Assembly (NCBI GenBank): GCA_011390955.1
Contig: JAABRM010000053.1
Location: forward strand, 1-51,741
Reading direction: 5' to 3'
DNA from: Oscillatoriales cyanobacterium
GTDB lineage: Bacteria; Cyanobacteriota; Cyanobacteriia; Cyanobacteriales; Laspinemataceae
Length of the DNA stretch: 51,741 bases
Part shown: piece after piece, positions 2,905 to 35,090 of the stretch
How positions within the stretch are numbered: the stretch's first letter is position 1
Layout: each line of letters begins with the position of its first letter
Made by a program: the position numbers and the translations under genes
The notes under the pieces: generated by a model
Told to the model about the DNA's origin: nothing
The model's input: only the letters and a program-made list of their open reading frames with translations
Database searches by the model: none

Positions 2905-3013
2905 AATTTTAGACCTCTCGTCGCGATTATTATCTGGCGCGATCGCCCCCAATAATCTTGTTAAATTAATCTTCGGTGCGATCGCTGTTATTGAGTGAGT
3001 TTAATCGATAATA

Positions 3014-3889: not shown

Positions 3890-4007
3890 AATGCTAGACC
3901 TCTCGTCGCGATTATTATTAAATTAATCTTCGGCGCGATCGCCCCTCTTCTAAAAATGGCATTTATCAGGGCGATCGCTATTTCATTGAAGAGTTTAATC
4001 GATAATG

Positions 4008-4844
4008 TTAATCGATTTCCTCTGGATTGATTCCCATTTCTCGTAACCGCTGGGCTAATTTTTCTGCCCGTTGGCATTCAGTTTCCGCCCGTTGGCGTTC
4101 ATTTTCCGCCCGTTGGCGTTCATTTTCCGCCCGTTGGCGTTCGGTTTGGGCTTCTTGTTCCAGAGTTTTGATTTTCGCTTGTTCCTCCTTAATTAATTGC
4201 TCCACTACCGGCGGATTAAGTAATTCTTGCACCGATAAATCAAGCTGGTCAAACTGACCGGAAACTACTGAACTATCTTCGCTGAAATCAACCCAATTAT
4301 ATCCTTCTTCATGGGTCGCATTTGCCAACACTCTCACTCGTTTCTTTTGGGGGTCTACGATCCAATATTCGGGAATTTCTGCCATTTCATACTCATAACG
4401 TTTAGTCACATAATCATCTCGGCGATTACTGCTGACAATTTCTACCACCAGAATCGGCTTTTCCGCAAAATCTAAAACCCCAGCCCCGGGACGCGAAATC
4501 ACTTCTTCCCAAACACTTTGGCTACAGACTACTACATCAGGAATTCGCGATGAATTTTCGGCGGTGCGAACGCCAGTCCCTAAAGAGTTGGCGACTAAAT
4601 CCAAGTTTTTGTCAGCAAAGTACCGCTGTAACTTGTAAATCAGAAATTTGCAAATATTGGTATGTAAGTGACTTTGTGCTGGCATCGGTATGAGTTTCCC
4701 CCTGAATAATTCATAGAGAACATCCGGTTCTCCCTCATACGCGAGGTATTCTTGGAAGGTTAAGAGATGTTCGGTTTCCGACTGTACTTGTTCTTGAGGT
4801 TGCTGAATCGCTACCTCGGTGGCTCTTTCGACAGCTTGAGTCAT
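4008..4844 (-). CDS. Uma2 family endonuclease-like protein, tandem copy 3
   Basis: 278 aa. Same fold and motifs as its neighbours (RIPDVVV, LVVEIVSS, KRYEYEMAEIPEYW). The N-terminus (SETEHLLTFQEYL) is shared with copy 4, while the middle (AQSHLHTNICKF) is shared with copy 1, so the gene is a mosaic of the two sub-types. Four heptads in the tail, two with Asn instead of Thr (NERQRAE). Start ATG is preceded by GAGAGGTCTAGC. Confidence 0.85.
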   Translation of the reverse strand: MTQAVERATEVAIQQPQEQVQSETEHLLTFQEYLAYEGEPDVLYELFRGKLIPMPAQSHLHTNICKFLIYKLQRYFADKNLDLVANSLGTGVRTAENSSRIPDVVVCSQSVWEEVISRPGAGVLDFAEKPILVVEIVSSNRRDDYVTKRYEYEMAEIPEYWIVDPQKKRVRVLANATHEEGYNWVDFSEDSSVVSGQFDQLDLSVQELLNPPVVEQLIKEEQAKIKTLEQEAQTERQRAENERQRAENERQRAETECQRAEKLAQRLREMGINPEEID

Positions 4845-4965
4845 AATGCTAGACCTCTCGTCGCGATTATTATTAAATTAATCTTCGGCGCGATCGCCCC
4901 CAATAATCTTGTTAAATTAATCTTCGGTGCGATCGCTGTTTGATTAATGAGTTTAATCGATAAAT

Positions 4966-5778
4966 TTAATCGATGTCCTCTGGATTGATTCCCATTTCTC
5001 GTAACCGTTGAGCTAATTTTTCCGCCCGTTGGCGTTCAGTTTCCGCCCGTTGGCGTTCGGTTTCCGCCCGTTGGCGTTCGGTTTGGGCTTCTTGTTCCAG
5101 AGTTTTGATTTTCGCTTGTTCCTCCTTAATTAATTGCTCAACCACCGGCGGATTAAGCAATTCTTGCACCGATAAAACTAGCTGGTCAAACTGCTCCGAA
5201 ACTATGGAACTATCTTCGCTAAAATCAACCCCACTATATCCTTCTTCATTGGTTGCATTAGCCAACACTCTCACTCGTTTCTTTTGGGGGTCTACTATCC
5301 AATATTCAGGAATTTCTGCTGCCTCATATTCGTTACGTTTAATGATATAATCATCTCGGCGATTACTGCTGACAATTTCGACTACCAGAATCGGCTTTTC
5401 CGCAAAGTCTAAAACCCCAGCACCCGGACGATCGCTAATTTGCTCCCAAAGACTTTGCTGGCAAACAATCGCATCAGGAATTCGGGATGAATTTTCCTCG
5501 GTTCTTACGCCTACAGTAGTTTTGGCTACCAAAGCTAAATTTTGGTCGGCAAAGTAGCGCTGTAACTTGTAAACTAAAAATTCGCAAATTTTGGCGTGAT
5601 ATAAAGTTGGTGCTGGCATCGGTATGAGTTTCCCCCTGAATAATTCATAGAGAACATCCGGTTCTCCCTCATACGCGAGGTATTCTTGGAAGGTTAAGAG
5701 ATGTTCGGTTTCCGACTGTGCTTGTTCTTGAGGTTGCTGAATAGCCACCTCGGTTGCTCTTTCGACAGCTTGAGTCAT
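4966..5778 (-). CDS. Uma2 family endonuclease-like protein, tandem copy 4
   Basis: 270 aa, first gene of the minus-strand row. N-terminus SETEHLLTFQEYL as in copy 3, middle APTLYHAKICEF as in copy 2. PD-(D/E)XK residues are intact (RIPDAIV, LVVEIVSS, KRNEYEAAEIPEYW). Three TERQRAE heptads precede the conserved end REMGINPED. GAGAGG lies upstream of the ATG. A promoter for the row would lie in 5779..6000; none is obvious by eye. Confidence 0.85.
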   Translation of the reverse strand: MTQAVERATEVAIQQPQEQAQSETEHLLTFQEYLAYEGEPDVLYELFRGKLIPMPAPTLYHAKICEFLVYKLQRYFADQNLALVAKTTVGVRTEENSSRIPDAIVCQQSLWEQISDRPGAGVLDFAEKPILVVEIVSSNRRDDYIIKRNEYEAAEIPEYWIVDPQKKRVRVLANATNEEGYSGVDFSEDSSIVSEQFDQLVLSVQELLNPPVVEQLIKEEQAKIKTLEQEAQTERQRAETERQRAETERQRAEKLAQRLREMGINPEDID

Positions 5779-22107: not shown

Positions 22108-23019
22108 ATGACTTCACCGTTAAGGCTGTGTTTGCTGTCTACAGTTATATATTTAGTCCTGCCCGGGTTAAATGCTACAGCCAATCAAATTCCCCAAACA
22201 GAAAATCAGCAAATTTCACCGGAATCAGGTTGTCCGTTACCGGCCTTATCTCGGCTGCAAAAGCATCGCATTGCTGCCGGTGAAACCCTGGAAACTATTG
22301 CCGCACAATATAATCTGATTCCCGCCACCTTGATGGGAATGAATCCGATTTTAAGACAAAGGAAAGCCCCAGTTGGGGCAGAGATTTTGATTCCCCCTTA
22401 CAACGGAATTCGGGTTGATATCCCAGCAGGTGAAACCTGGCAAGATGTGGCCCAAAAATATAATTTGCGGCCTGATGTTTTGTTTGAGGTGAATGGTTGT
22501 CAAGCCAACCCGCGAGTGGTATTTGTTCCCGGAGTGAATTGGTCGCCGGTTAATTCCGCAGCATCCGCTAGTCAAGTAGTGCGACAAGGAGTTTTAGGCG
22601 GTTTTCCCTTACCCAGCCCGTCCGAAGAATTACTGGGCTATGGTTGGCGGTTACGACCGACAAGCAGTGAAGTGACTTTTCACAGTGGCGTTGACCTCCA
22701 AGCGGCGGTGGGGACTCCCGTGTTGACCGTAGGGGATGGGGTGGTGGCTTTTGCTGACTCCCGTGGGCCTTATGGCAATTTGGTGGTGATTAACCATGCT
22801 AACGGGAAACAAACTCGTTATGCCCATTTGGAGTTAATGTCGGTGCAAGTCGGTCAGCAGGTGAAAAAGGGAGAACAAATTGGCACCGCAGGCAACACCG
22901 GAAGCCCGGATCTAAATGAGCCCCATTTACATTTTGAGGTGCGATCTAATTCCGATCTCGGTTGGGTGGCAGAAGATCCACAACTTTATTTGCATTTAGC
23001 CGATATGAGCGATCGATAA
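22108..23019 (+). CDS. LysM-M23 family metallopeptidase (envelope, LytM type)
   Basis: 303 aa. An N-terminal signal peptide (LCLLSTVIYLVLPGLNATA) is followed by two LysM-like segments at ~52-97 (HRIAAGETLETIAAQYNL) and ~102-148 (IPAGETWQDVAQKYNLRP), then an M23/LytM domain from ~170. Zinc ligands and catalytic His are visible: FHSGVDLQ (HxxxD) and HLHFEV. It is a probable peptidoglycan endopeptidase or NlpD-like amidase activator; with both zinc motifs intact it may be active. No clear ribosome site precedes the ATG. Confidence 0.85.
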   Translation: MTSPLRLCLLSTVIYLVLPGLNATANQIPQTENQQISPESGCPLPALSRLQKHRIAAGETLETIAAQYNLIPATLMGMNPILRQRKAPVGAEILIPPYNGIRVDIPAGETWQDVAQKYNLRPDVLFEVNGCQANPRVVFVPGVNWSPVNSAASASQVVRQGVLGGFPLPSPSEELLGYGWRLRPTSSEVTFHSGVDLQAAVGTPVLTVGDGVVAFADSRGPYGNLVVINHANGKQTRYAHLELMSVQVGQQVKKGEQIGTAGNTGSPDLNEPHLHFEVRSNSDLGWVAEDPQLYLHLADMSDR

Positions 23020-23035
23020 ATGCGCGAAGGGGGAA

Positions 23036-23192
23036 AGAAACCGGTTTCTTTGAGCAATTCCTGCTGAAAACGAAAGATTTACATAGAAACCCGGTTTCTG
23101 CTATTTGTTTCCCGACGTAAATCCGTGGATTCCCGCATTCGCGGGAATGACAGTTTTTTTCTGCTATTTGGGAAAGAAACCGGGTTTCTGGA
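23036..23192. repeat. Composite of GAAACCGGGTTTCT and ATTCCCGC palindromes
   Basis: Holds the AAACCGGTTTCTTT...AGAAACCCGGTTTCT inverted pair (~23040-23100) and one GTGGATTCCCGC..GCGGGAATGACAG hairpin with T7 (23125-23160), then another AAACCGGGTTTCT. It lies between the convergent M23 and JAB-E1 genes and may act as a terminator. Confidence 0.7.
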
Positions 23193-23201
23193 CTGCTATT
23201 C

Positions 23202-25094
23202 TTAAGAACGAGAACGACTCAAAGCAGCGCGAATATCACCCACCTGCAACTCCTGTAATGGTACTTGGCGCGGATCGACTCGATGGTGAACGCTACCACA
23301 AACAGGACATTCCTCCCGACTCTTTGCTGTTAACCACACGCTTTGATAAGCGTATTGTCCCGGTGTTTCGCCAAATATAGCAGGATAAAACCAGTAATTT
23401 GGCACCATTGAAAGGGTGAGATAATTAAACCCTGCTTCAATTGCTGGATTTAAGAATCCTTTTAGCTTAACTTGTGTATTTTCCGGCAACAATAACGACA
23501 GCGCCATTTTTACCGCCACACTGGTGACATGGTGGATATCTGCTGACAGCGCCACTTCACCCATTACCCGACCATTGCTACCATAATCCCCATCTGCACT
23601 TACCCGTCCTAAATCCACTTCAGCTTGATGACGATTAGCCGTAGCGCAAAGATAACAGGGTGTTTTTTCCGGTAAAGTAAAAATTACTTCGCCACCTTCT
23701 GCACCCTTATATAACCCAACAAACAAAGTAGGTTTGCCGTGAAAATAGGCAAAACGGTTGAGAATCCGCTGTGCTGCTGGGTCATCAGTTGTTGCTATTA
23801 CCAAGTCTGCTTGTTGCACCAAAGCATCAAAATCTGCCACTTGATAATCTAATAAACTCTTGGATTGTAGCGTCAATTCCACCAAGGGGTTAATATGCAA
23901 TAGTCGCCGTCCTAAAGCTTCTACCTTGGGATGTCCTACGTCGGTGAGATCGTAAGTTGTGCGACAAAGATTCACCGTTTCTACTATTTCCGGGTCAATT
24001 AAAGTTACTGCACCTACACCACTGCGAATCAGTTGTTCCGCTAAGTAGGAACCCACAGAACCCGTCCCAGCAATTAACACCCGTTTCGTGCTAATCTGTT
24101 GACTCAAAATTCCCGTACTGCGAGCAAATAATCCTTGTTGCACCTCAGTCGCGGCGGTTTTTGGGTTTTCTCCCGAATAACAGCCAGTCCATCCAGCTAA
24201 ACGAGCAATTTCGCTGTCTGCGGTGAGGGCGGACTTTCCCAAAGGGCGGTAAACTTTTCGGTAAGAACCAGAACCTTTAATAATGCTTTTGACTGCGGTT
24301 AATAAACGTTCTTCGGCGGGTGTTTCTAGGGACCAGGGGAGTTGAATTTGTTCGGTGTTTTCCCCTGCTGGTGTTGCTAACAATAAGGGTGGTGTGATGG
24401 GATAATTATTGCTGAATAAAAACAGCAGTTCCAAACCGTCGAGGGTGACGCAACCAGCAGGAATAGTGCGTCCTTCTATTTCGGTGGTAAAGATTTCTGG
24501 CGGTTTGATGCTGCCAAAGGTGCGACTAATTAGTTCTAAATCAGGTTGCATGGGTATAGATGGGGGTTGAGAAGATTGTGTGGTTAGATTCTGGTTGGGT
24601 TTAATTCGCCCTAACTCTCGTTGAGAAATTTTCTCCACTGGCAGAGTTTCCACCCGTACCCCACCGCGATCGCGGTAAGCTGCGTAGCAGGAAATTTTGC
24701 CTGGACTGAGGGAAAGTTCGTGGTTGCGTAATTGACACCGAGGCCGCTGTGTGGTGACAATGGGAGCAACAAAGTAGGGAATATGAGGGTTGATACTAAG
24801 TCCTTCCAGCATTGCTTCTTCATCAGGTCCTGAAGGGCGATCGTAACCGCCGGGGTGAGAGTGGATAACGCCTTTAAACTCGATTCCCAGTTCTATTTCT
24901 AGTCGCTGTACTCGTTCGGTGAGTTGGCGAGAAGGGAGATAACTGGCGCCACTGGTTTGCGCTTGTTGGTCTAAGATAAAGTGGGTGATGATGGGTTGAC
25001 CGATGGGCCCTAACAATGCACCACCGCGTTCGGGGGAATAAGCTGCGATCTCGCGCTCAATTTGACGCAAAACATCCTCAGAGATTTGCAACAT
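23202..25094 (-). CDS. JAB deubiquitinase-E1 (ThiF) fusion protein
   Basis: 630 aa from MLQISEDVLR; AGAGGT precedes this ATG, and the reading from 25205 adds only repeat-derived residues. Residues 1-140 form a JAB/MPN domain with a complete JAMM set: E22, H78-S-H80, S88 and D91 in HSHPGG...SGPD. Residues ~186-275 have the shape of a degenerate E2 fold (LFLFSNNYPITPPLLLATPAG) without an obvious catalytic Cys. Residues ~335-600 form an E1/ThiF adenylation domain: IAGTGSVGSYLAEQL, LIDPEIVETVNLCR with the Arg, GHPKVEAL with the Lys, and zinc CxxC pairs at 480/483 and 596/599. Expected role: process and adenylate a ubiquitin-like protein. It follows the E2-like gene in one transcription unit, separated by a small repeat. 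Confidence 0.88.
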   Translation of the reverse strand: MLQISEDVLRQIEREIAAYSPERGGALLGPIGQPIITHFILDQQAQTSGASYLPSRQLTERVQRLEIELGIEFKGVIHSHPGGYDRPSGPDEEAMLEGLSINPHIPYFVAPIVTTQRPRCQLRNHELSLSPGKISCYAAYRDRGGVRVETLPVEKISQRELGRIKPNQNLTTQSSQPPSIPMQPDLELISRTFGSIKPPEIFTTEIEGRTIPAGCVTLDGLELLFLFSNNYPITPPLLLATPAGENTEQIQLPWSLETPAEERLLTAVKSIIKGSGSYRKVYRPLGKSALTADSEIARLAGWTGCYSGENPKTAATEVQQGLFARSTGILSQQISTKRVLIAGTGSVGSYLAEQLIRSGVGAVTLIDPEIVETVNLCRTTYDLTDVGHPKVEALGRRLLHINPLVELTLQSKSLLDYQVADFDALVQQADLVIATTDDPAAQRILNRFAYFHGKPTLFVGLYKGAEGGEVIFTLPEKTPCYLCATANRHQAEVDLGRVSADGDYGSNGRVMGEVALSADIHHVTSVAVKMALSLLLPENTQVKLKGFLNPAIEAGFNYLTLSMVPNYWFYPAIFGETPGQYAYQSVWLTAKSREECPVCGSVHHRVDPRQVPLQELQVGDIRAALSRSRS

Positions 25095-25155
25095 AGTTGA
25101 CCTCTTGCTATTAGTTATATTGGGGTATATTGGGGGAAATATTGGTGTAATAAGT

Positions 25156-25198
25156 TTGGGAAGAAACCGGGTTTTTCCAGAACAAAACCCGGATTTTT
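25156..25198. repeat. AAACCCGGTTT-type inverted repeat between E2 and JAB-E1 genes
   Basis: GAAACCGGGTTTTTCC and AAAACCCGGATTTTTC form an inverted pair in the 122-bp spacer. The spacer is otherwise featureless. This insert creates the false long N-terminus of the JAB-E1 reading frame. Confidence 0.7.
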
Positions 25199-25216
25199 CA
25201 GCCAAGAATGTAGAAA

Positions 25217-25744
25217 CTAGAAAGGAAATTGTCCGGTGCGGACATAGAAGCTAAAACCTGTTGCCCAGAGTACGGATTTAGCGTAAGCTTTCTCTAGGGT
25301 AGGGTAGCCATGTTCTTCGTTGAGACAGATGCAACCGTTGGAAAATAGATGTCCTTCGCTGGGACTGTAACGCCCTGCAACTTCTGGGAAGAGGACCATT
25401 ACTTGATAGAGGCTACCGTCGTTGAAGATGAACATGGTGTAGGTGTCGCCTACTTCGCTGGTGATTTCGTAAACCCAGCCGGTGACACCGCTGATCTGCA
25501 TTTCTTGGGCGTTGGCGGGGAGTTTGTGTGCCACAACTTGCCGATCTTGCATTAAAGTGGCGGCGAAGAGTTTTTGCGGCACTCGCGAGAGGTTGCGTTG
25601 TTGACCGGGTTGGGGTTGAGTGAGGATGTTGCCGCCGTTGTCTACGAAAACGGCGCGGTTTGGTGAGCTAGGATCGTCGATACCGCTTTGACGGTTAGTC
25701 ATAACGCGGTTGCGGACTTCGTTAAGATCGACTTGTTGTGCCAT
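25217..25744 (-). CDS. E2-like ubiquitin-conjugating (UBC-fold) protein
   Basis: 175 aa. Residues 85-125 read as the UBC antiparallel sheet (WVYEITSEVGDTYTMFIFND, YQVMVLFPE). The segment GHLFSNGCICLNEEHGYPTL matches the E2 active-site pattern HPN..G.ICL, making C140 the likely catalytic cysteine (C138 is adjacent). The C-terminal helix ends FYVRTGQFPF. Together with the downstream JAB-E1 fusion it makes an E2/E1/JAB set of the kind described for bacterial ubiquitin-like systems. AGAGGT precedes the ATG. A terminator 170 bp upstream isolates the pair as its own unit. No ubiquitin-like gene was found beside it. Confidence 0.8.
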   Translation of the reverse strand: MAQQVDLNEVRNRVMTNRQSGIDDPSSPNRAVFVDNGGNILTQPQPGQQRNLSRVPQKLFAATLMQDRQVVAHKLPANAQEMQISGVTGWVYEITSEVGDTYTMFIFNDGSLYQVMVLFPEVAGRYSPSEGHLFSNGCICLNEEHGYPTLEKAYAKSVLWATGFSFYVRTGQFPF

Positions 25745-25911
25745 ATTTACCTCTATTAGCTTTTGAGTGCTTCTACTATTCAGTCGTTAGACGGTTTGAG
25801 TTTTATGCAGAAGTCGCGGGGGAATCTTGGGTGGTGTTCCCTTGCTTGTGTCTGCTTACTGGTTTATCGGTGGGGGGGAGAATGTTTATGCAAGTGGGGG
25901 AAATTTTCGAC

Positions 25912-25938
25912 AAAAAAGGGGCGCAAGCATTGCGCCCC
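25912..25938 (-). terminator. Rho-independent terminator ahead of the E2-like gene
   Basis: GGGGCGCAA (25918-25926) pairs with TTGCGCCCC (25930-25938). On the minus strand the stem is followed by T6 (25917-25912). It ends transcription coming from the CHAT/DUF433 block, so the E2/JAB-E1 pair needs its own promoter between 25745 and 25911. Confidence 0.85.
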
Positions 25939-26014
25939 TAAAGTTTGTGGCTGATATTTGCGTCCTTCCTGGCTCCAGCCTGGGAACGAGACCTCGTAAC
26001 TGTAGCAATAATTT

Positions 26015-26347
26015 TTACAATTGGGCTTTTCTGGTAGCTCTGAATTGCCTAAGTTTTTCGGATACAGGTGGAGGGTTTAGGCGCTGTTGTTCTCTCATTC
26101 TGTGACCATGTTCTATCCAATTTTTTAGGTAATTGCTGATAGTTTCTTTGTTCTGTAGGTAATAAAGAATTGTGGCATAAACTTGTTCTAAGGTTAGGGA
26201 GGGGTAGGTTTGGGCAATTTCTTCTGGAGTTAAAGCGCGATCGATTTAGTCATAAAGGATAGTTTCGATGCCAATTCTTGTACCTTTGAGTCGAATGTCA
26301 TCGGGGGTGATAAAGTTAAAATAATCTGTTAGTTGTGCTGTTGACAT
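26015..26347 (-). pseudogene. DUF433 antitoxin-like gene with in-frame stop
   Basis: 110 residues if one TAA (26246-26248, codon 34) is read through. Before it: ITPDDIRLKGTRIGIETILY; after it: LTPEEIAQTYPSLTLEQVYA, together a standard DUF433 helix-turn-helix antitoxin domain. The stop replaces a residue that is usually Tyr in the family (IETVLYEYI-type motif), so a single base change explains it. The ATG lies 3 bp after the CHAT gene stop, which suggests an operon. No partner toxin remains. Confidence 0.75.
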
Positions 26348-26350
26348 GGG

Positions 26351-27502
26351 TTATATTCTCATTCTTATTAGGGTTCCTAACAAAGTAGACAAGATAACTT
26401 CCAGAGCATACCTTAAATTACTCTCCTGTAACTTTGGCCAAATTAGTGGTAATTCCGCTAAATTTTGACAAATTACTGGCAACCAACTGGCACAGGGAAA
26501 CAGGCTTTCCCAACCTTGCAATCTTTCCCGCGCTTCCTTAACAGCTAAATAAAATGACTGACCCTCCGAAAAAGAACACAGAAAATATTTTAAAAATTCC
26601 TGTGCTACTTTGTCAGGAACAGGTTCTCGCATGACAATCATTTGAGGTAGATTCAAGTCAGCTAAATCCTGAGCTAAACCCAAACCATCACAGGAGTTAA
26701 AAATCGCTAATTGTAAACCGTTTTCAATGGCTTTTTTTAACGCATACTTTAAGTCAGGAATAGTTAAACTATCAGTCTTATTAATATAAATAACTCCTGT
26801 CTCTCCTTCCGTGCGGCTATGTCCGGCAAAAAATAGAATATCCCAAGACTGTTCCCATAGTCGATCGTTGAGTGCTTGTCGATTTGGTTTAACTAAAAAC
26901 TCAACTTTAGCACCGGGAATAGAATTTAAAATTTTTCTATCTTCTTCAACATTAATTCCCTGATCATCGCCCAAAATAGCCAAAATATTCACTTCATTTT
27001 TAGCAACTTTGGCTGAGGTCACTTGTTTAAACTTGGGCGCACTGACACTAATTTCGGCTTTAGGGTAACTTTCTAATAGATCCCAAAGATGCCAGGGAAG
27101 TTGGCGTAGCTGAATATTTGAAGTTTGGATAATTAACCGCACTTCATCATCATATTTTAAATATCCTCGTAACTCTTCCCTAATATGACTAAATTGCTGC
27201 GATTTTAGCCAAAGATTAAAATTATGCTTGAAATCATCAGATTTTTCCTTAACATCAAGGATAGAAAAGTTAGTCGTTTGTGCTGCTTTTTTTGCCTCTA
27301 ATTTTCTAATTTTTACCCCAATAAAGCCATAATAAGTCACTTTCCAATTGATGTGAGACTCAACCACTTTTGAATTTGGCGGCAAAGATCCGGTTTCCTG
27401 AATAGTCGCAGGTTTCCCTTCATCCCCCATCTGTAATGTCACCGGAAAACCTGTTTTGTCCAAGTCTCCCTCGGCAAAAGTCAGCAGCACTAACTTCTCC
27501 AT
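26351..27502 (-). CDS. CHAT-domain (caspase-like) protein
   Basis: 383 aa. The N-terminal ~150 residues are a conserved cyanobacterial module (MEKLVLLTFAEGDLDKTGFP...). The CHAT peptidase domain spans ~165-360 with the dyad His228 (FFAGHSR) and Cys271 (IFNSCDG). The end LRYALEVILSTLLGTLIRM is hydrophobic and short; relatives often continue with membrane helices or effector modules, so a C-terminal truncation is possible. AGGAG lies 7-8 bp upstream of the ATG. It belongs with the sigma-like and DUF1822 genes upstream, a recurring cyanobacterial set, though a toxin-antitoxin pair now separates them. Confidence 0.85.
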   Translation of the reverse strand: MEKLVLLTFAEGDLDKTGFPVTLQMGDEGKPATIQETGSLPPNSKVVESHINWKVTYYGFIGVKIRKLEAKKAAQTTNFSILDVKEKSDDFKHNFNLWLKSQQFSHIREELRGYLKYDDEVRLIIQTSNIQLRQLPWHLWDLLESYPKAEISVSAPKFKQVTSAKVAKNEVNILAILGDDQGINVEEDRKILNSIPGAKVEFLVKPNRQALNDRLWEQSWDILFFAGHSRTEGETGVIYINKTDSLTIPDLKYALKKAIENGLQLAIFNSCDGLGLAQDLADLNLPQMIVMREPVPDKVAQEFLKYFLCSFSEGQSFYLAVKEARERLQGWESLFPCASWLPVICQNLAELPLIWPKLQESNLRYALEVILSTLLGTLIRMRI

Positions 27503-27520
27503 CGCTTTCTCCTGGTTAGA

Positions 27521-27609
27521 TTAGATGACGAAATTTTCCACAATACTAGCATCGGTGACTATTATATCACCAATTTTTCCGTGAATCAGCACCGCCAAAG
27601 TGAGATAAC
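27521..27609 (-). pseudogene. DUF1822 C-terminal remnant
   Basis: The 28 codons before the CHAT gene end in DASIVENFVI-stop, nearly the same as the true DUF1822 end at 28355 (DANIVENFAI-stop). Upstream of it is LTLAVLIHGKIGD with no start. This is a leftover 3' end of a second DUF1822 gene, or the original end displaced when the toxin-antitoxin pair was inserted. Confidence 0.7.
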
Positions 27610-27615
27610 GGGGAA

Positions 27616-27978
27616 TTATTCATCGCGATCGCACTCGGCTAAGATACTTAAAATATCATTAGCATTAATATCTTCTCTGTCTGATTTAGAGTAAATTGTC
27701 AGCAGAATTATGCTAGTTTCTGATTCAACTTGATAGATAAGTCGATAACCGGCGCTTTTCCCTTTTTGGATGTCGCTATTTTTAACTCTCACCTTGAGGA
27801 TGACATAATTTTCACCCATCCCGGCAAGGCGATCGCCTATAAAATTCCCACCTTGTAATTGCTCAATAATGGACTGAGTATCTAACCGAATCTTGCGATA
27901 TTTTTTGGATAATTCCCGTAAATTTCGTTTATACTCAGGTGTTAAATCAATCTAAACAAAAGGCGTGTTATTCGACAT
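27616..27978 (-). pseudogene. RelE/ParE-type toxin with nonsense codon 9
   Basis: 120 codons from the ATG at 27978, which overlaps the antitoxin end. Codon 9 is TAG (27952-27954), in the order TPFV-stop-IDLTPEYKRNLREL; a TGG-to-TAG change would explain it. The rest is intact: LGG-like middle QGGNFIGDRLAG and the RelE core SAGYRLIYQVESETSIILLT followed by YSKSDREDI. Without a start after the stop, only a 67-residue piece from 27819 could be made. Likely an inactivated mRNA-interferase-like toxin, or a sequencing error. Confidence 0.75.
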
Positions 27979-28222
27979 CTATTCCCTCCCACATTTCAGA
28001 AAGGGGGATGCGTTGTCCTGATTTAGCTTGTTTTAATGCTCGTCGGAGACTGGCTTTTACTTCTGCAATGGGAGTATCATCAGGATCGGTTTCAACTTCC
28101 TCATTTACTTCGGGATAAAGCACAATAACTCGCACTCGACTAGGAGATAAATTTTCAATGGGGTAGTCGAGGGATAAATGGCCTTTTTCATCCAGGGTTC
28201 CTGTCACTTCAATGGCTTTCAT
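27968..28222 (-). CDS. RelN-like type II antitoxin
   Basis: 84 aa from MKAIEVTGTLDEKGHLSLD, with GAGGATAACC upstream; the ATG 33 bp earlier lacks this site. N-terminal AbrB-like strand region with DYPIENLSPSRVRVIVLYPE, then an acidic linker and a helical toxin-binding tail (VKASLRRALKQAKSGQRIPL). It overlaps the start of the RelE-type toxin by 11 bases, the usual antitoxin-toxin arrangement. If the toxin is dead, this is an orphan antitoxin. Confidence 0.75.
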   Translation of the reverse strand: MKAIEVTGTLDEKGHLSLDYPIENLSPSRVRVIVLYPEVNEEVETDPDDTPIAEVKASLRRALKQAKSGQRIPLSEMWEGIDVE

Positions 28223-28354
28223 TTGGTTATCCTCAAGTTTGCATCTATGAGACATTTTACAAAATTCTTAAAAGCCCCCCTTTTTTACGGGAGTTGGGGG
28301 GATTTCGGTATTTTGCCAGATATCTATTATATTAGATTAGCCTAAGAATTGAAA

Positions 28355-29680
28355 TTATATCGCAAAATTTTCCACAATATTAGCATCCCCTAAAGCTACT
28401 TTAACACTAAACTGCTCTCCTGGAACACCGCGAAAATCCAGTTGGATCCAATTGTCAGCATTTCGAGATTCGGCTTCTAAAAAGACTTCTCCATTTTCAT
28501 CCAGGATAATTAATTGTGTAGCCGGTGGTAAATAATTTTGTGCTTCATTACGGGGATATAATCTTACCAGGATGTCCCGTTTATCATCACTTTTTTGCTG
28601 ACAGTTGACAATCAATGCAACCGGATAATCTCCTAATGTGATTTTACTGACTTTACTTACACTTAAAGTGGGATTTTCGGCATCAGTCCTGCTGGAACGC
28701 GGTGTAGTGGCAAATCGAAAAATTAGATTTCCCTGTAATTCACTTAAAAAGGATTCCAATGTTTGCCAATTTGATTCAAAAGCACTTTCAATATTTTGCA
28801 ACCATTGACTTAGATTTATAACATCTATAACAGTGGCTAAATCTTGGGATAAAGGAGCAACTACAGGTTGCTCTATATTAACCGTTTCTTCTGATTCATC
28901 ACCCCCCCAAAGTTCTGCTAACTTGTCTAGCAATTCTTCTGCTAAATCTTGCAGTTCATTTTGTTGTGATTCATCAAAATCTTCTTTTGCTGCCACTGTA
29001 TCACCTCTAAAAGCAAGACCTCCTACGGTTAAATAACTTGCTAAAAACTCACCACCGGCATACCGTCGCTCGTATTTTTTATAGGTGCGATATATTCGCT
29101 CTAATTGAGTGACAATTTCTGAAAAAGATTCGTCATTTAATCGCTGTTTAACTTTAGCAGCTACGGGGTCATTACTCTGAAAAAAATCCAGGGCTGACTC
29201 TAGGCGATCGAGATAATCAATCAATGTTTCTATCGGTTGAAGACTGGTAATTTCTATTGTTTCTAGCGGTGATTGTGGGTCTGTGGTCGGATAAAATCCT
29301 AACAATTGCACCTCGTTTAACTGTTCTGGGAATTGCACCCCAATATAGGCAATTCTGTCCTCTGTCACCTCTGAAGGTAGAGAAATAACTGTTTCTCCAG
29401 GGAAAACCGGACGACATTCTAGTTTACCTAAATTGGGAATGACTAAATCAGCGACATCATTAAAACATCGGACAACAGGATGCCAACTGTCGCCAGCGTT
29501 TAAATCCGTTTCAATTTCCAGCCAGTCTAAAAAACTGCGAACCCCTAAAACAGCAAGAGTGTTTAAGTAAACTTGCTTACCTTTTTCAACTGTATCTTGT
29601 TGTCCAGAGAATTTTCGAGCAGTTTCATGGTTTTCTCTGCTTAAAGCCATCGTCAAAAAGTTAGTTTTTGTGGTATCCAT
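28355..29680 (-). CDS. DUF1822 family protein
   Basis: 441 aa, cyanobacteria-specific family of unknown function. The diagnostic N-terminal part is YLNTLAVLGVRSFLDWLEIE with CFNDVADLVIPNLGKLECRP and EVQLLGFYP. The C-terminal ~110 residues are a beta-rich domain ending ANIVENFAI (FSVKVALGD). AAGGAG lies before the ATG, and only 12 bases separate it from the sigma-like gene upstream, so the two are cotranscribed. DUF1822 genes typically accompany CHAT-domain proteins, as here. Confidence 0.85.
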   Translation of the reverse strand: MDTTKTNFLTMALSRENHETARKFSGQQDTVEKGKQVYLNTLAVLGVRSFLDWLEIETDLNAGDSWHPVVRCFNDVADLVIPNLGKLECRPVFPGETVISLPSEVTEDRIAYIGVQFPEQLNEVQLLGFYPTTDPQSPLETIEITSLQPIETLIDYLDRLESALDFFQSNDPVAAKVKQRLNDESFSEIVTQLERIYRTYKKYERRYAGGEFLASYLTVGGLAFRGDTVAAKEDFDESQQNELQDLAEELLDKLAELWGGDESEETVNIEQPVVAPLSQDLATVIDVINLSQWLQNIESAFESNWQTLESFLSELQGNLIFRFATTPRSSRTDAENPTLSVSKVSKITLGDYPVALIVNCQQKSDDKRDILVRLYPRNEAQNYLPPATQLIILDENGEVFLEAESRNADNWIQLDFRGVPGEQFSVKVALGDANIVENFAI

Positions 29681-29692
29681 AAGATTCTCCTT

Positions 29693-30409
29693 TTAGTTCT
29701 CGTATCCTAATTCTCTAGCAATTCTTCTAAGTAAAGGAAGACAGTAATTTCGCCAGCGATCGTACACTGTTTGTTCGGGAATTGTTTTTTCGGGAGTAGT
29801 TAACTCCTTAGCAACTTGCCTGGGGTTAAGAGGCGGTTCTTCAAACAGTAGTTTTCGACTCAAAAGTTGGCAGTCAAGATTGGCATTGTTACGCGGGTGA
29901 CAATTTCTCAGTTTCATTTCCGGATCTTCTCCAATATAGCGTCTTATTTTCCCAGCAAGAGAATGACGTTCTTTTTGCAGCAGGCGACTAATGCCAGTGA
30001 GAGTTAGATCATCTGCTATGGTATCTTCAATAGTCAAATCTTCATTCCCTCCAATAGTCTCGCTCGTACTAACAGTTTTAGATTTTCGTCCGCGCTTGAC
30101 ATCTTTACAATCAGTCTTCAGAATCATCATTACCCAGTTAATAAAGCATTCGCGAACCTTAGCAGCCTCAGAAGGGTTTTGACAGTTAACGGTTTCCAAG
30201 TTCAAAGAATATCTTTGAGGAAACCTATTAATATTTCGCTTAACGTCCCTTTCTGTTATTGGCAAAGCTTCATCATAATAGGGTAGCCAACCTTGATTAA
30301 GACGTCTCTTAACTTCCGGCAAATGGTCGATCGCGAATCCTAGTGCCTCAGCCTTTTCAGGAGAGTGCAAGGCTTCTCGAATCAATTGACATAATGACGC
30401 ATCATCCAT
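29693..30409 (-). CDS. Sigma-70-like protein linked to DUF1822/CHAT
   Basis: 238 aa from MDDASLCQLI; an upstream reading from 30472 adds 21 hydrophobic residues of doubtful value. Region-2-like helices around FINWVMMILKTDCKDVKRG are followed by a linker (SETIGGNEDLTIEDTIADD) and a C-terminal helix-turn-helix-like part (PLNPRQVAKELTTPEKTIPE, VYDRWRNYCLPLLRRIARE). This matches the divergent sigma-like proteins that precede DUF1822 in cyanobacteria. Role: perhaps dedicated transcription of the CHAT module; inferred from context only. Confidence 0.6.
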   Translation of the reverse strand: MDDASLCQLIREALHSPEKAEALGFAIDHLPEVKRRLNQGWLPYYDEALPITERDVKRNINRFPQRYSLNLETVNCQNPSEAAKVRECFINWVMMILKTDCKDVKRGRKSKTVSTSETIGGNEDLTIEDTIADDLTLTGISRLLQKERHSLAGKIRRYIGEDPEMKLRNCHPRNNANLDCQLLSRKLLFEEPPLNPRQVAKELTTPEKTIPEQTVYDRWRNYCLPLLRRIARELGYEN

Positions 30410-30474
30410 AGGGGCGCGAATCAAAGCAAAAATAGGGATGCCCGGATTATAGCCCAAAGCACCCCCCACCAAGA

Positions 30475-30541
30475 CAGAAACCAGGTTTTTCTGAAAAATA
30501 GGCGGTTGGAAACCAGATTTCTAGGCAGAAACCCGGTTTCT
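30475..30541. repeat. AAACCAGGTTTTTC...AAACCCGGTTTC inverted element
   Basis: An approximately 65-bp element with arms of the AAACCCGGTTTCT type, between the 134-aa gene and the sigma-like gene. It supplies the false upstream codons of the latter. Possible hairpin terminator or attenuator. Confidence 0.6.
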
Positions 30542-30547
30542 TTAGCC

Positions 30548-30952
30548 TCAAGCTATGTCGTCTAAGTCACCCCCAAATTCCTGATGGTCTTCCTTCCAGT
30601 TGCGGTAAGCGTCGTCATACCGTTGCTGCGCGGCAATAACGTCTTGTTCACATTGTTGAATTTGGGTGGCGTAACGGTGCGCGATCATCTCTTTATCTTC
30701 CGCTAAAACCTCCTCTAATTCAGCGCGTTTTTGCTCTACCCATTCCCGACGCATTCGTTCAACTTTTTGCTGTCTTTCTTTTGTTTCATGGGGGGCACCT
30801 GTTATGTCGATTTCTGGCGCGGGAAATTTATTCGGCAATTCGGTTAAGTTACTACGGTGTTTAAATAGGCGTTCTTCCAAAGTCCGATCGCCTTCTAATT
30901 CTAACTCTTTTTTGCGATCGCGCCCCATGTTGATATCATAATCCGCAACCAA
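30548..30952 (-). CDS. Charged coiled-coil hypothetical protein, possibly frameshifted
   Basis: 134 aa in this frame, opening with TTG; an internal ATG (30928) is an alternative. Very charged helices: LEGDRTLEERLFKHRSN, then VERMRREWVEQKRAELEEVL and QQCEQDVIAAQQRYDDAYRN. No family recognised. Upstream an in-frame ATG at 31014 opens a Pro/Tyr-rich peptide (MNRYYQPETYSPPTPNQPNE) in the +1-shifted frame, which runs into A-AAA-AAG at 30907-30913. A -1 shift there would fuse both parts into one ~155-aa protein. It may be a mutation or programmed. Confidence 0.5.
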   Translation of the reverse strand: MVADYDINMGRDRKKELELEGDRTLEERLFKHRSNLTELPNKFPAPEIDITGAPHETKERQQKVERMRREWVEQKRAELEEVLAEDKEMIAHRYATQIQQCEQDVIAAQQRYDDAYRNWKEDHQEFGGDLDDIA

Positions 30953-31201
30953 GGTTCGTTAGGCTGGTTCGGGGTCGGTGGGCTGTAGGTTTCGGGTTGA
31001 TAATATCGGTTCATGGTGATTTCTTTGCTAACGGTGTTATGGATATATCGAAGGTTGTCACCGTTGTTATGCAAAGCTGCGGAAAATAACGAATTTACTC
31101 GTAGGGGCGAAGCATAAAGCCTACGGCATGGCTTCGCTTACCGGGCGAAAAATCTTGGGAAAAAACAAATAACTCATATCCCCGAATGCTTCGCCCCTAC
31201 A

Positions 31202-34105
31202 TTAACGCAAACCAGAACAGATAAAACCAGCCCAATAAAAGGGATCGGCAAAAGGATATTCTTTACCACAGAGAATTGGCAGGTTTTGTTGTACCCTGAA
31301 AATGCGCTTTCCTATCGCATTCCACTGTTTATATTCTTCATCCCATCGCTGGTAGTCGGGCGTTCCTGCAACTAGACGCTGGCGATTTTTCTTGGCTTTT
31401 TGGCGCTTTTGTTCGGCTATTTGTAATTGCTGCTGATAATGCTTTTGTAGTTCAGCTTTGTAATTACTTGCTAGGGTTTGATCAGATAAATTTCTGAGGT
31501 CAATTTGCGCTTTTTTCAGGGCTTCAGGACGGTTTAAACGCTGACGATTTTGATAATAAAAAATGGAAAATAAGGCAGTGGCTAAATCATCAACAGACCA
31601 CAAGGTACTCACCACATTTCGCGCCCCGGCACATAAAAAGCCGGTGGATAATGATAAGATATCATCACTAATTCCCGCCACACCCAGGTTAGTTTCGCAA
31701 CAGGAAAGAAACACATCAGAGAGGTTAGGCAGGCGAAAACCGGGGGTCATTATTTGCCCTAATGTAATTTGACCATCGGCTAATATGAGAATCGATTCTA
31801 AAGGACGATCCAGACGAGATTGGGCGTGATGGCTAGAGTGTAATACTTGCACTTGTTTGGCAAGTTGGCGATAATTTTTTACGGTTGCTTGTTCACGACC
31901 TTTTAAGCGTTGATCGGCAGGAATTTGGTGTAAATTTGCAATTTTTTCGCATTCAAATTCTACACTGGGTAGGCTACCATCGGGGTTTTCTACCGTACCG
32001 TAATTAATTTTATCAAGTGGGGGACGTTGTTGGCAATATTGCAAGATTTGGCTACTGGGAACGTAGCGAATGGGGAATTTATCGCCTAAGTATTGAGTGG
32101 AAACTGTTTCTGTTTCCGTAGGCATACTGATATTAGTAGTAGTTTTCTTTTTCTCCAGTCGGGTGAAAATTTCGATAGCTTGGCGCATCATTTCTGATGG
32201 TTTTTTTTCTGGCGTTTGAGATTTAATGGGAACCGTTAAAGGTAAGGCGGCAAAGGGAATTTGATGCCAATATAAATGGGGAATGATAATCAGTTCCTTA
32301 ATATCCTGGAGATAGGTTTCTACTAAGGTTTTGAGTTGCAATTTATCGGCTAATTGCTGCAAAAAATCTGATATTTTGGCATACCACAGGCTATCTTGTT
32401 TCTTGTTAAAATAGGGATTTAACCACTCGTCAACTACTAAATCCTGTAAAGTTTGATAGCCAAAGCCGGTACAAGTATGTAGTTCGGGGTTTTTGTCTTT
32501 GTAGATGATGAAAATGTGGGTGTCGTTGTTGGTGGTAAAGAAATTGAGAATCGCAGTCTGGGGTTTTTCGGTGAGTTGCTGAATGGTGGCAAAATCTAGG
32601 GGATTAACTTCCTTTTCTCCCGCTAAAACGGGGTCTAAACGGCGCATTTGTTCCCAAACTTGTTGTTTTTCTGCTTCCAAAGCGGCGATTTTTTCCGTAG
32701 CAGCTTGGAAAGCAGCGCGAGTCGAGGTGACAGTGCCTTTATTTGTTGGTTTATCTGTTCCTTGATTGGTTGAGTTTTCTGTCTGTTGTTGGCTAGAGTC
32801 AGAGTTATTTTGCAGGCGGTTTCGTTCTGCATCAATTTGGGCTTGGAGTTGGTCGTATTGTTGCAAATATGCCTGAACTTGGGGCGGAATTTCTCCATCT
32901 GCATAGAGGTCATTACTGGCCATTAAGTCTACCAGACGTTTAGCGCGAGAGCGATCGACATAAGCAATGGCTTTTTCCAAATTGCCGCTATTGATGTAGG
33001 CTTGAATAATATTTTCATAAACATCAATAGAATCAGCGATAATCTGTTGACGGCTGGCATCAGTTTTTGACCAACTGCGGCTTTTTTCCACCGCTTTAAT
33101 GGCGGATTCGTAGCCTTCTATAGCTATCTCCCATTTACCTTCTTTTAAGCCAAGATCGCCGAGATTTCTGCCCGATCTTAAACAATCTTGAGGAAAGGCT
33201 TCTGGTGTTATAATTTCTAATGCCCGTTGATAACAACAAATCGCCTCATCAATATTCTCAGCCCGGTTGCCGGTGATTTTGTCAGAGTAGGCATTTCCCA
33301 GATTATTTTGAATCCCTGCCCAATGTTCGGGAAAATCCTCACGAGTTCTTACTTCTAAAGCCTGTTGAAAACAACGAATGGCCGCATCAATATTCTCAGC
33401 CCGGTTGCCGGTGATTTTGTCAGAGTAGGCAGAACCCAGATTATTTTGAGTCGTTGCCCAATTTTGGGGAAAATCCTCACGGGTTATTACTTCTAATGCC
33501 CGTTGAAAACAACAAATCGCCGCATCAATATTCTCAGCCCGGTTGCCGGTGATTTTGTCAGAGTATGCATTTCCCAGATTATTTTGAGTCATTGTCCAAT
33601 ATTGAGGAAAATCCTTACGGGTATAAACTTTTAATGCCAGTAGATAACAACTAATGGCCGCATCAATATTCTCAGCCCGGTTGCCGGTGATTTTGCTTCT
33701 GTAGGCAATTGCCAGATTATTTTGAGTTACTGCCCAATCTTGGGGAAAATCAGCACGATTGAAGAGGTTTAAAACTAATTTATAACCAATAATGGCAATG
33801 TCTAAGTTACTCGATATTTTGCCTAAAGGAAACTGCTGAATTAAATTGCTGAAATAGAAAAAAACTTGTGCATAGCCTGGGGCTTGTTCGGGTGCGACTT
33901 GGGAGAGAATATGGTTAGCCCAATCTGAGTACAAGGCAACTAATTTATGATTGAGTTTATCTTGGTTAGCCTTCAGAATGGGATAGACAACTTGTGGGTT
34001 GCCCTCACTGTTAGCAGTAGCTTGTACTACTTGAGCCAAAAAATTGATATATTCTTGTTGAGATTCTGGTGATAAGAGATATTTTTGTAGGCGTTGTTCG
34101 TTCAT
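31202..34105 (-). CDS. TPR-CHAT protease (caspase-like)
   Basis: 967 aa. Residues ~100-330 hold tandem 46-residue TPR-like repeats marked by KITGNRAENIDAAI and TQNNLGNAYSD, at least four copies with near-identical DNA. Residues ~395-490 are coiled coil. The CHAT domain occupies the C-terminal ~430 residues with the His in VLHSSHHAQSRLD and the catalytic Cys in VFLSCCETNLG. Such proteins are proposed peptidases in cyanobacterial conflict or cell-death pathways. It is on the same strand as, and upstream of, the sigma-like/DUF1822/CHAT block, with ~170 bp of repeat-containing spacer after it. AGGA precedes the ATG. Confidence 0.88.
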   Translation of the reverse strand: MNEQRLQKYLLSPESQQEYINFLAQVVQATANSEGNPQVVYPILKANQDKLNHKLVALYSDWANHILSQVAPEQAPGYAQVFFYFSNLIQQFPLGKISSNLDIAIIGYKLVLNLFNRADFPQDWAVTQNNLAIAYRSKITGNRAENIDAAISCYLLALKVYTRKDFPQYWTMTQNNLGNAYSDKITGNRAENIDAAICCFQRALEVITREDFPQNWATTQNNLGSAYSDKITGNRAENIDAAIRCFQQALEVRTREDFPEHWAGIQNNLGNAYSDKITGNRAENIDEAICCYQRALEIITPEAFPQDCLRSGRNLGDLGLKEGKWEIAIEGYESAIKAVEKSRSWSKTDASRQQIIADSIDVYENIIQAYINSGNLEKAIAYVDRSRAKRLVDLMASNDLYADGEIPPQVQAYLQQYDQLQAQIDAERNRLQNNSDSSQQQTENSTNQGTDKPTNKGTVTSTRAAFQAATEKIAALEAEKQQVWEQMRRLDPVLAGEKEVNPLDFATIQQLTEKPQTAILNFFTTNNDTHIFIIYKDKNPELHTCTGFGYQTLQDLVVDEWLNPYFNKKQDSLWYAKISDFLQQLADKLQLKTLVETYLQDIKELIIIPHLYWHQIPFAALPLTVPIKSQTPEKKPSEMMRQAIEIFTRLEKKKTTTNISMPTETETVSTQYLGDKFPIRYVPSSQILQYCQQRPPLDKINYGTVENPDGSLPSVEFECEKIANLHQIPADQRLKGREQATVKNYRQLAKQVQVLHSSHHAQSRLDRPLESILILADGQITLGQIMTPGFRLPNLSDVFLSCCETNLGVAGISDDILSLSTGFLCAGARNVVSTLWSVDDLATALFSIFYYQNRQRLNRPEALKKAQIDLRNLSDQTLASNYKAELQKHYQQQLQIAEQKRQKAKKNRQRLVAGTPDYQRWDEEYKQWNAIGKRIFRVQQNLPILCGKEYPFADPFYWAGFICSGLR

Positions 34106-34154
34106 GGTTGTTTTCCTGTGGGTAAAGGGGTAAGCGGCGATCTAGGGTTTAGTG

Positions 34155-34400
34155 GGCATTGCACGAAACCGGGTTTCTTTGATTAATCTCTGCGGAAAAC
34201 GAGAAAGTCTCATAGAAACCCGGTTTCTGAGATTTGGAGTCCCATAAAAACCCGGTTTCTGAGATTATTATCGTAGGAAGTGTTGGAGTTTATGCAGTCG
34301 CGGGGAAAGAAACCGGGAAACCGGGAAAGAAACCGGGTTTCTTTGATTAATCTCTGCGGAAAACGAAAGAATCTCATAGAAACCCGGTTTCTGAGATTTC
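34155..34400. repeat. Cluster of GAAACCGGGTTTCT elements
   Basis: Two ~65-bp elements with the inverted arms AAACCGGGTTTCT and AGAAACCCGGTTT around TTTGATTAATCTCTGCGG (34160-34230 and 34315-34395), plus extra single arms. It fills the gap between the TPR-CHAT start and the 63-bp array, leaving little room for an ordinary promoter. Confidence 0.75.
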
Positions 34401-34417
34401 GTTCCTGACGTAAATCT

Positions 34418-35090
34418 GTGGATTCCCGCATTCGCGGGAATGACAGTTTTTTTCTGAGATTTGTTTACCGACTTAAATTAGTGGATTCCCGCATTCGCGG
34501 GAATGACAGTTTTTTTCTGAGATTTGTTTACCGACTTAAATTAGTGGATTCCCGCATTCGCGGGAATGACAGTTTTTTTCTGAGATTTGTTTACCGATGT
34601 AAATCCGTGGATTCCCGCATTCGCGGGAATGACAGTTTTTTTCTGAGATTTGTTTACCGATGTAAATCCGTGGATTCCCGCATTCGCGGGAATGACAGTT
34701 TTTTTCTGAGATTTGTTTACCGATGTAAATCCGTGGATTCCCGCATTCGCGGGAATGACAGTTTTTTTCTGAGATTTGTTTACCGATGTAAATCCGTGGA
34801 TTCCCGCATTCGCGGGAATGACAGTTTTTTTCTGAGATTTGTTTACCGATGTAAATCCGTGGATTCCCGCATTCGCGGGAATGACAGTTTTTTCTGAGAT
34901 TTGTTTACCGACTTAAATTAGTGGATTCCCGCATTCGCGGGAATGACAGTTTTTTCTGAGATTTGTTTACCGACTTAAATTAGTGGATTCCCGCATTCGC
35001 GGGAATGACAGTTTTTTTCTGAGATTTGTTTACCGACTTAAATTCGTGGATTCCCGCATTCGCGGGAATGACAGTTTTTTTCTGAGATTT
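34418..35090. repeat. 63-bp tandem hairpin array, 11 units
   Basis: Eleven head-to-tail units of 62-63 bp. Each starts with GTGGATTCCCGC and its mirror GCGGGAATGACAG, followed by T6-T7, CTGAGATTTGTTTACCGA and a short variable TGTAAATCC or CTTAAATTA. Starts are near 34418, 34481, 34544, 34607, 34670, 34733, 34796, 34859, 34921, 34983 and 35046. Each palindrome plus T-tract resembles an intrinsic terminator. The array separates divergent TPR-CHAT and glycosyltransferase genes. The open frame through it (repeating VDSRIRGNDS) is an accident of 63 = 3x21. Confidence 0.95.

Follow-up and report, generated by a model that had tools for sequence, protein, structure and literature searches.

We analysed a 51,741-nucleotide stretch of the genome of an Oscillatoriales cyanobacterium (contig JAABRM010000053.1, hereafter the window) and concentrated on two adjacent genes at 23202-25744, an E2-like gene followed by a gene that fuses a JAB domain to an E1 (ThiF) domain. 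We propose, with a probability of roughly 0.6, that this pair is a compact bacterial ubiquitin-like conjugation and deconjugation machine carried in an accessory block, that its modifier is the C-terminus of a protein outside the beta-grasp fold, and that it has a role in conflict or defence. Established directly are the genes and their motifs, the purifying selection on both, the homology of the E1 and JAB parts, and the block together with its absence from one relative; homology of the E2 part is likely. Judged by sequence, the combination is real, rare and new: a separate Cys-bearing E2, a JAB fused to an E1, no Cys in the E1 crossover loop and, in four genomes, no match to SMODS and none above cut-off to polyUbl or Prok_Ub.

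The JAB-E1 fusion

The pair comprises the following features.

25217 to 25744, minus strand: E2-like protein, 175 residues (open reading frame (ORF) list; H132 and C140 aligned with the His and catalytic Cys of E2s of the CBASS (cyclic-oligonucleotide-based antiphage signalling system) type)
23202 to 25094, minus strand: JAB-middle domain-E1 (ThiF) fusion, 630 residues (ORF list, Pfam; ATG at 25094 the most likely start)
24660 to 25094, minus strand: JAB/JAMM metalloprotease-like domain, residues 1-145 (Prok-JAB, 4.9e-8, above the Pfam cut-off)
24105 to 24554, minus strand: unassigned middle domain, spanning residues 181-330 or so (a YPxxPP stretch and secondary structure of low confidence are its only E2/RWD-like traits)
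23205 to 24104, minus strand: ThiF/E1 adenylation domain (Pfam ThiF, 5.2e-34, above cut-off)
25167 to 25192, strand not given: repeat-derived hairpin in the gap between the two genes (hairpin and repeat scans)

An earlier note on this DNA, made from the letters alone, had placed an E2-like and a JAB-E1 gene here on the same strand, and both ORFs are found there. Its residue numbering fits an ATG start at 25094. The ORF list gives the fusion as a 667-residue version starting at TTG (25205), the first 37 codons of which lie in repeat DNA; the pattern of this repeat occurs 20 times in the window, where 0.06 matches are expected, with most places counted twice because the repeat is near-palindromic. 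We prefer the ATG start because the longer ORF reads through this repeat.

JAMM motifs take the form E..HxH x7 S xx D. The complete motif claimed for the fusion was borne out, and its residues (E22, H78, H80, S88 and D91) are invariant in three copies of the protein, two of which are 97-100% alike, so that the copies represent two independent lineages. The genome of the window holds a second set of E2, E1 and JAB genes (L036, 3840-6375, contig C19). When the window JAB was compared with the C19 JAB, none of 2000 shuffles scored as well; for the JAB of the copy in Arthrospira sp. PCC 9108, 80 of 2000 did.

A ThiF/E1 domain is present as well, as the note had it. The ATP-site residues, whose absence the note would have taken as refutation, are present and conserved (GxGxxG at 343-348, D367, N375, R378, K390 and D437). 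The domain carries C480xxC483 and C596xxC599, which we take to be of the Zn type. There is one ThiF match in the chain, and the E1 crossover loop is without Cys. Across ten aligned E1s, picked from the matches and not a survey, this Cys is absent from the eight that are not fused to an E2 (for one of which, L037, no E2 was identified) and present in the two E2-E1 fusions. Structure comparison of the fusion model, which spans residues 313-565 and barely covers the JAB and middle parts, found the E1 fold, with matches that include MoeB, ThiF and MccB; no Cap2 chain is among the structural matches listed, though Cap2 chains are matched by sequence. Pfam reported no rhodanese domain in the chain. 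By these comparisons the E1 and JAB parts are homologous to known families.

The middle domain had been described as a degenerate E2, which we could not confirm. It has no PADLOC match, the window copy has no Pfam match, and the sole Pfam match of the Arthrospira copy is at chance level (RAG2_PHD, 0.11). An assignment as E2 or RWD was set aside, since no usable family match was found and nothing rose clearly above shuffles in comparisons with the window and C19 E2s, the C19 JAB protein and the N-termini of three CBASS-type E1s. The exception is a short match to the L037 E1, for which 6 of 2000 shuffles were as good with the window copy and 23 of 2000 with the Arthrospira copy. A helix-then-strands order is seen in a poor AlphaFold model (predicted local distance difference test score, pLDDT, of 31-54 in that block).

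The E2-like protein

The GCICL pattern with C140 that the earlier note had reported is present, together with H132, in all three E2 copies and aligns with other E2s; H132, C140 and W160 are invariant across the eight rows of the alignment. Residues 1-60 form an extension without an assigned fold. No Pfam family was found for the protein at E 1. PDLC00876, an E2 model, is the only PADLOC model reported for the two copies scanned, at 8.9e-4 for the window E2 (matches listed up to E 0.1) and 1.8e-4 for the Arthrospira E2 (up to E 1). The C19 E2 itself matches this model at 3.2e-14, and Pfam RWD at 8.6e-4, below the RWD cut-off.

BLASTP aligned the window E2 with the C19 E2 (30.0 bits) and with a relative of the latter in G388 (25.4 bits), and none of 3000 shuffles was as good in either comparison or in the same two comparisons made with the Arthrospira E2. 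Matches were also obtained to the short E2 of L048, which adjoins a nucleotidyltransferase-like gene by eye (23.5 bits, 6 of 3000 shuffles as good), and to a Bradyrhizobium E2 (21.2 bits, 19 of 3000), while the Arthrospira copy matched the Arthrobacter E2 (3 of 3000). The product of 25217-25744 is likely an E2 homologue, and on the alignments its active-site Cys appears to occupy the position homologous to the Cys of the E2/UBC superfamily.

Conservation and distribution

The second pair, in Arthrospira sp. PCC 9108 (L031), has a JAB-E1 71% identical and an E2 79% identical to the window copies. The two genes are 16 bp apart there and 122 bp apart in the window, counted from the ATG at 25094. 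Between window and Arthrospira, the nonsynonymous and synonymous divergences (dN and dS) are 0.13 and 2.2 for the E2 and 0.21 and 2.9 for JAB-E1, with dS near saturation; by this measure both genes are under purifying selection. Identity is unevenly spread along the fusion, at 0.71 in the JAB, 0.63 in the middle domain, 0.80 in the E1, 0.42 in the linker (26 columns) and 0.47 in the tail (30 columns), and along the E2, where residues 1-60 stand at 0.68 and the remainder at 0.85.

A JAB-E1 query gave a match at E 0.001 in all 59 genomes searched (the window's own and 58 relatives). Just two, the window's genome and G002, have a full-length match; the remaining matches listed start no earlier than query residue 300, within the ThiF region or immediately ahead of it. 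A drawn sample of 386 cyanobacterial genomes contained the E2 in a single genome, that of the window. In the contig collection, where records very near the window's genome may be omitted, it matched two loci, the Arthrospira pair and L032. The L032 match, from KSB1 (31%, residues 27-100), was discarded as chance: it lies inside a 767-residue protein, and none of the 17 ORFs listed there is an E1 or JAB by eye. Plasmids gave no relative of the E2 at E 0.01 and none of the JAB plus middle domain at E 0.1, and viral contigs gave no relatives in three scans. The pair is rare in the data searched.

Two further loci were seen in these searches. The best match of the window E1 in the phage collection is a ThiF protein in a gut record (L037, 584-6308), where it adjoins an FtsK-like ATPase (by eye). 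Near the Arthrospira pair, an IscB-like protein with RRXRR (1.3e-74) and HNH (8.1e-13) matches is encoded at L031 4126-5397, minus strand.

Search for a modifier and a cyclase

The earlier note had seen no modifier or cyclase gene on either side of the pair. This stands for the nine window proteins scanned with Pfam, none of which has a beta-grasp or ubiquitin-like domain. Systems without a modifier gene are already known (CBASS, type 6a). The absence of such a gene is in itself neither strange nor novel on our analysis, because CBASS Cap2/Cap3 works without a ubiquitin-like protein (PMC10097602).

Four genomes were searched with family models: G000, the genome of the window (95% complete, 113 contigs), its relatives G001, which lacks the pair, and G002, which has it, and G419. 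Among ubiquitin-like families, PF14452 (polyUbl) and PF14454 (Prok_Ub) gave nothing above cut-off, other families of this kind not being searched. Matches to these two below cut-off (E 0.18-0.75, three genomes each) were dropped as candidate modifiers; such matches also occur in control genomes. PF18144 (SMODS) gave no match at E 0.1 in the four genomes, and Pfam found no CD-NTase cyclase among the nine window proteins, seven of which were also scanned with PADLOC, or three proteins of the Arthrospira locus; cyclases outside the SMODS, Pfam and PADLOC models are not covered. ThiS-family places above cut-off number three in each of the four genomes.

Two other candidates were rejected. The block protein at 30548-30952 ends in Ala, but none of the ORFs listed for the Arthrospira locus corresponds to it. 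A modifier fused to the E2 was suggested by residues 1-60, which resemble by eye the end of a 75-residue protein encoded just upstream of the C19 set, and profile comparison gave no support. This 75-residue protein is 61% identical in G388, has the invariant end K-G-E-Y, and matches Pfam families only below cut-off (glycine zipper 0.022, Shadoo 0.054). It would be a modifier candidate if the JAB trims to Gly.

The genomic block

Together with CHAT, DUF1822 and sigma-like genes, the pair occupies a block of 11 kb, which is absent from the relative G001. The other features of the block are listed below.

23034 to 23173, plus strand: repeat, left block edge (88.7% over 141 columns against the lone repeat copy of the G001 empty site)
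25917 to 25939, minus strand: terminator-like hairpin with a T-run, upstream of the E2 gene (hairpin scan)
26351 to 27502, minus strand: CHAT-domain protein (Pfam CHAT, 8.7e-13)
28355 to 29680, minus strand: DUF1822 protein (Pfam DUF1822, 4.9e-73)
29693 to 30472, minus strand: sigma-factor-like neighbour, by position and look only (no Pfam match above cut-off)
31202 to 34105, minus strand: TPR-CHAT protein (Pfam CHAT, 1.8e-35; TPR_12, 9.3e-17)
34326 to 34463, plus strand: repeat, right block edge, same orientation (91.3% over 138 bp against the lone repeat copy of the G001 empty site)

The block also holds a RelE-like gene (below its cut-off) and a DUF433 gene (26040-26345), which has an in-frame stop in the window and is intact in G002 (110 residues). 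The earlier note had the pair isolated by a terminator. A terminator-like hairpin does precede the E2 gene, but "isolated" is misleading for a pair that lies in a block with neighbours; moreover, the region has 7 terminator-like sites against 4.5 in shuffles, so that such a site is weak evidence on its own.

In G001, alpha/beta-hydrolase and glycosyltransferase genes (by eye) are 218 bp apart and the gap holds one repeat copy, whereas in G002 the same two genes are 13.7 kb apart with the block between them. Among the matches listed between G001 and window 23018-35016, none is long; they are short repeat matches or cover portions of the block at 69-72%. The block is DNA that is gained or lost. 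Direct repeats in the same orientation at its ends fit insertion or removal by recombination; this mechanism is a guess, because the edges in G002 carry only partial repeat copies (about 16 bp on the left, partial copies on the right). The left flank of the window differs from that of G001 and G002 and holds a peptidase gene (by eye), and therefore a further rearrangement took place on one side.

At the Arthrospira locus the order on one strand is E2, JAB-E1, sigma-like, DUF1822 and TPR-CHAT, so that a comparison of neighbourhoods, which the earlier note had proposed, finds the pair again in front of the same kinds of gene. However, these genes are not orthologous to those of the window. The DUF1822 proteins align mainly over 135 columns at their end (30%), the CHAT proteins are only distantly related, and the sigma-like proteins do not align at all, that of Arthrospira having a Sigma70_r4 match of 0.0086 that falls short of the cut-off. 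DUF1822 matches number 6 in G000, 8 in G001, 7 in G002 and 3 in G419, and because there are so few per genome, a chance meeting of DUF1822 with the pair in both settings is unlikely. An extracytoplasmic function (ECF) sigma factor and DUF1822 have been tied to caspase-type conflict systems (PMC8195603).

Elsewhere in the window, tandem partial copies of the block-edge repeat occupy 34326-35028. ORF copies that are nearly identical by eye lie near both ends (266-1174 and 50586-51245), the first being of the NB-ARC/AAA type (4.1e-9), and four look-alike ORFs stand in tandem at 2131-5778, the one tested being Uma2 (1.9e-35).

Proposed mechanism and alternatives

That the pair forms a ubiquitin-like conjugation module, as the earlier note had read it, is well supported. 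In the mechanism we envisage, the ThiF/E1 domain would use ATP to adenylate the C-terminus of a carrier protein. Because the crossover loop has no Cys, the activated C-terminus would probably be passed on from the adenylate directly to C140 in the E2-like protein and then onto a target. The absence of the crossover Cys from unfused E1s and its presence in E2-E1 fusions (8 versus 2 of the ten chosen) hints at such direct transfer. The JAB domain, joined to the E1 in one polypeptide, may trim the carrier, strip it from targets, or both; a single JAB-X-E1 chain would ease the joint study of attachment and removal. The modifier is probably the C-terminus of some other protein, like cGAS in CBASS, rather than a dedicated beta-grasp protein, and the machine most likely serves a conflict or defence response.

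Several results weigh against this proposal. The searches described above found no modifier candidate for the pair, and its tie to the CHAT, DUF1822 and sigma genes could be coincidence, given that the neighbours are not orthologous. On the side of the E2, four of the eight E2s compared pairwise with the window E2 (Streptomyces, Arthrobacter, Phaeobacter and Nostoc) gave nothing. Profile comparison of the window-type E2 family with the C19 and G388 E2s reached E 6e-4 with a probability of only 28.7%, and a profile of five other E2s scored the window E2 at 3.5 bits, where the best of 2000 shuffles reached 7.6. The AlphaFold model of the protein is poor, with a mean pLDDT of 48.7 that is too low to judge a UBC fold, and a Foldseek search with this low-confidence model returned nothing at E 0.001 or better.

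Among the alternatives, the pair may modify a CHAT, DUF1822 or sigma-like protein encoded in its block, or be modified by one, and so tune protease-based cell suicide as Cap2/Cap3 tunes the cyclase. The presence of the block in G002 and its absence at the same place in G001, the recurrence of sigma-like, DUF1822 and TPR-CHAT genes directly after the Arthrospira pair on the same strand, the low number of DUF1822 matches (3-8 in each of the four genomes), and the described links of ECF sigma and DUF1822 to caspase-type systems (PMC8195603) and of ubiquitin-like conjugation to caspase-type effectors in FtsH-ternary systems (PMC7159879) all speak for it. We nevertheless consider it rather unlikely, as the neighbours of the two loci are not orthologous, a terminator-like hairpin stands between the pair and the rest of the block in the window, and none of the three kinds of neighbour common to both loci ends in Gly or Ala. 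A specific form, in which a machine without a ubiquitin-like protein or cyclase conjugates, by its C-terminus, a protein encoded in the block and thereby controls a CHAT-protease/sigma response as a conjugation-regulated cell-suicide switch, is similarly doubtful. A housekeeping sulfur carrier of the ThiS/MoaD type encoded elsewhere is an unlikely modifier: the E1 belongs to the same superfamily as MoeB and ThiF, and G000 has its three ThiS-family places, but these do not track the pair because pair-less G001 has three as well, likewise G002 and G419, and the chain has no reported rhodanese domain.

It is very unlikely that the pair is a remnant of CBASS, left without its cyclase and by now either inactive or put to another use. 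The split-E2 E1s examined do sit in CBASS-type operons and the four genomes lack a SMODS match, yet purifying selection has acted on both genes, between copies that are 71-79% identical and that come from two genomes with no SMODS match. Least probable of all is an enzyme of sulfur transfer or small-molecule adenylation, like ThiF/MoeB or MccB, with no protein conjugation. An E1 without crossover Cys and structural matches to MoeB, ThiF and MccB would suit such an enzyme; the linkage to an E2-like gene in which the His and Cys are conserved, and a JAB that shares the E1 chain, would not.

Comparison with known systems

In the literature searched, which did not cover two natural-history papers on these families, we came upon no account of a JAB-X-E1 chain accompanied by a separate E2 that bears a Cys. 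Parts of the arrangement have precedents. For type 6e, Iyer et al. (2006) described an E1 with an N-terminal JAB, accompanied by polyUbl and a Cys-less E2-like domain (PMC1779556), and an archaeal Jab-E1 fusion is mentioned in PMC2948915. Like our pair, type 6e has the JAB N-terminal to the E1 in one chain in most cases and occurs sporadically, also in cyanobacteria. It differs in that its E2-like domain has no Cys and a polyUbl gene is present in all neighbourhoods, whereas here a separate E2 has C140 and no polyUbl was found, either among the nine window proteins or, as PF14452 above cut-off, in the four genomes. Type 6a (6A-MBL) is an E2-E1-JAB chain, usually with only a metallo-beta-lactamase beside it (PMC1779556); it shares the fusion of activator and deconjugase and, in its usual two-gene form, the absence of a ubiquitin-like gene. 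Its domain order is different, the E2 is separate in our pair, and no metallo-beta-lactamase is among the neighbours scanned.

Type II CBASS, with Cap2 and Cap3, resembles the pair in its E2, E1 and JAB domains (here assigned from sequence) and in having no ubiquitin-like gene. There the cyclase (cGAS) is the modifier, via a C-terminal Gly or Ala; Jenson et al. reported that the cyclase itself is conjugated through its C-terminal Gly (PMC10097602). The likeness holds in particular for CBASS with a split E2, where a short gene, read as an E2, precedes an E1 that has an extra N-terminal stretch and no crossover Cys. The split-E2 relatives of the E1 that we examined lie in CBASS-type operons, and their matches begin at query residues 267, 300 and 304. 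A Streptomyces rochei plasmid has a SAVED gene, a short gene, an E1 and a JAB gene; an Arthrobacter plasmid has a nucleotidyltransferase, a short gene, an E1, a JAB and a SAVED gene; and Bradyrhizobium has a JAB, a short E2-like gene, an E1 and a probable cyclase fragment (by eye). The Streptomyces and Arthrobacter short genes are annotated as hypothetical and are read as E2s from the aligned His and Cys. CBASS has a cyclase, an effector and a separate JAB gene, whereas here the JAB is fused to the E1, no cyclase is among the neighbours scanned and the genome has no SMODS match.

The Bil system (BilABCD) shares E1, E2 and JAB chemistry, but its ubiquitin-like protein has two domains, its JAB is separate and its E1 includes a Cys domain (PMC11354881). 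The Bil E1 consists of inactive and active adenylation domains (IAD and AAD) and the Cys domain; our chain has its one ThiF match and no crossover-loop Cys. No ubiquitin-like gene as in Bil is among the neighbours scanned or was found above cut-off with PF14454 or PF14452, no BilA model being searched. Kaur et al. (2020) described conflict systems in which caspase-like effectors are combined with ubiquitin-like conjugation (PMC7159879). The FtsH-ternary systems among them likewise have JAB, E1 and E2 in an operon with such effectors; their E2 carries a fused ubiquitin-like domain, and an E3 as well as vWA and AAA+ genes are present. The neighbours that we scanned show none of these features. 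Bacteria are known to carry out ubiquitin-like conjugation through ubiquitin-like proteins, as in Bil, or a cyclase, as in CBASS; a working pair that uses neither would point to a further kind of modifier.

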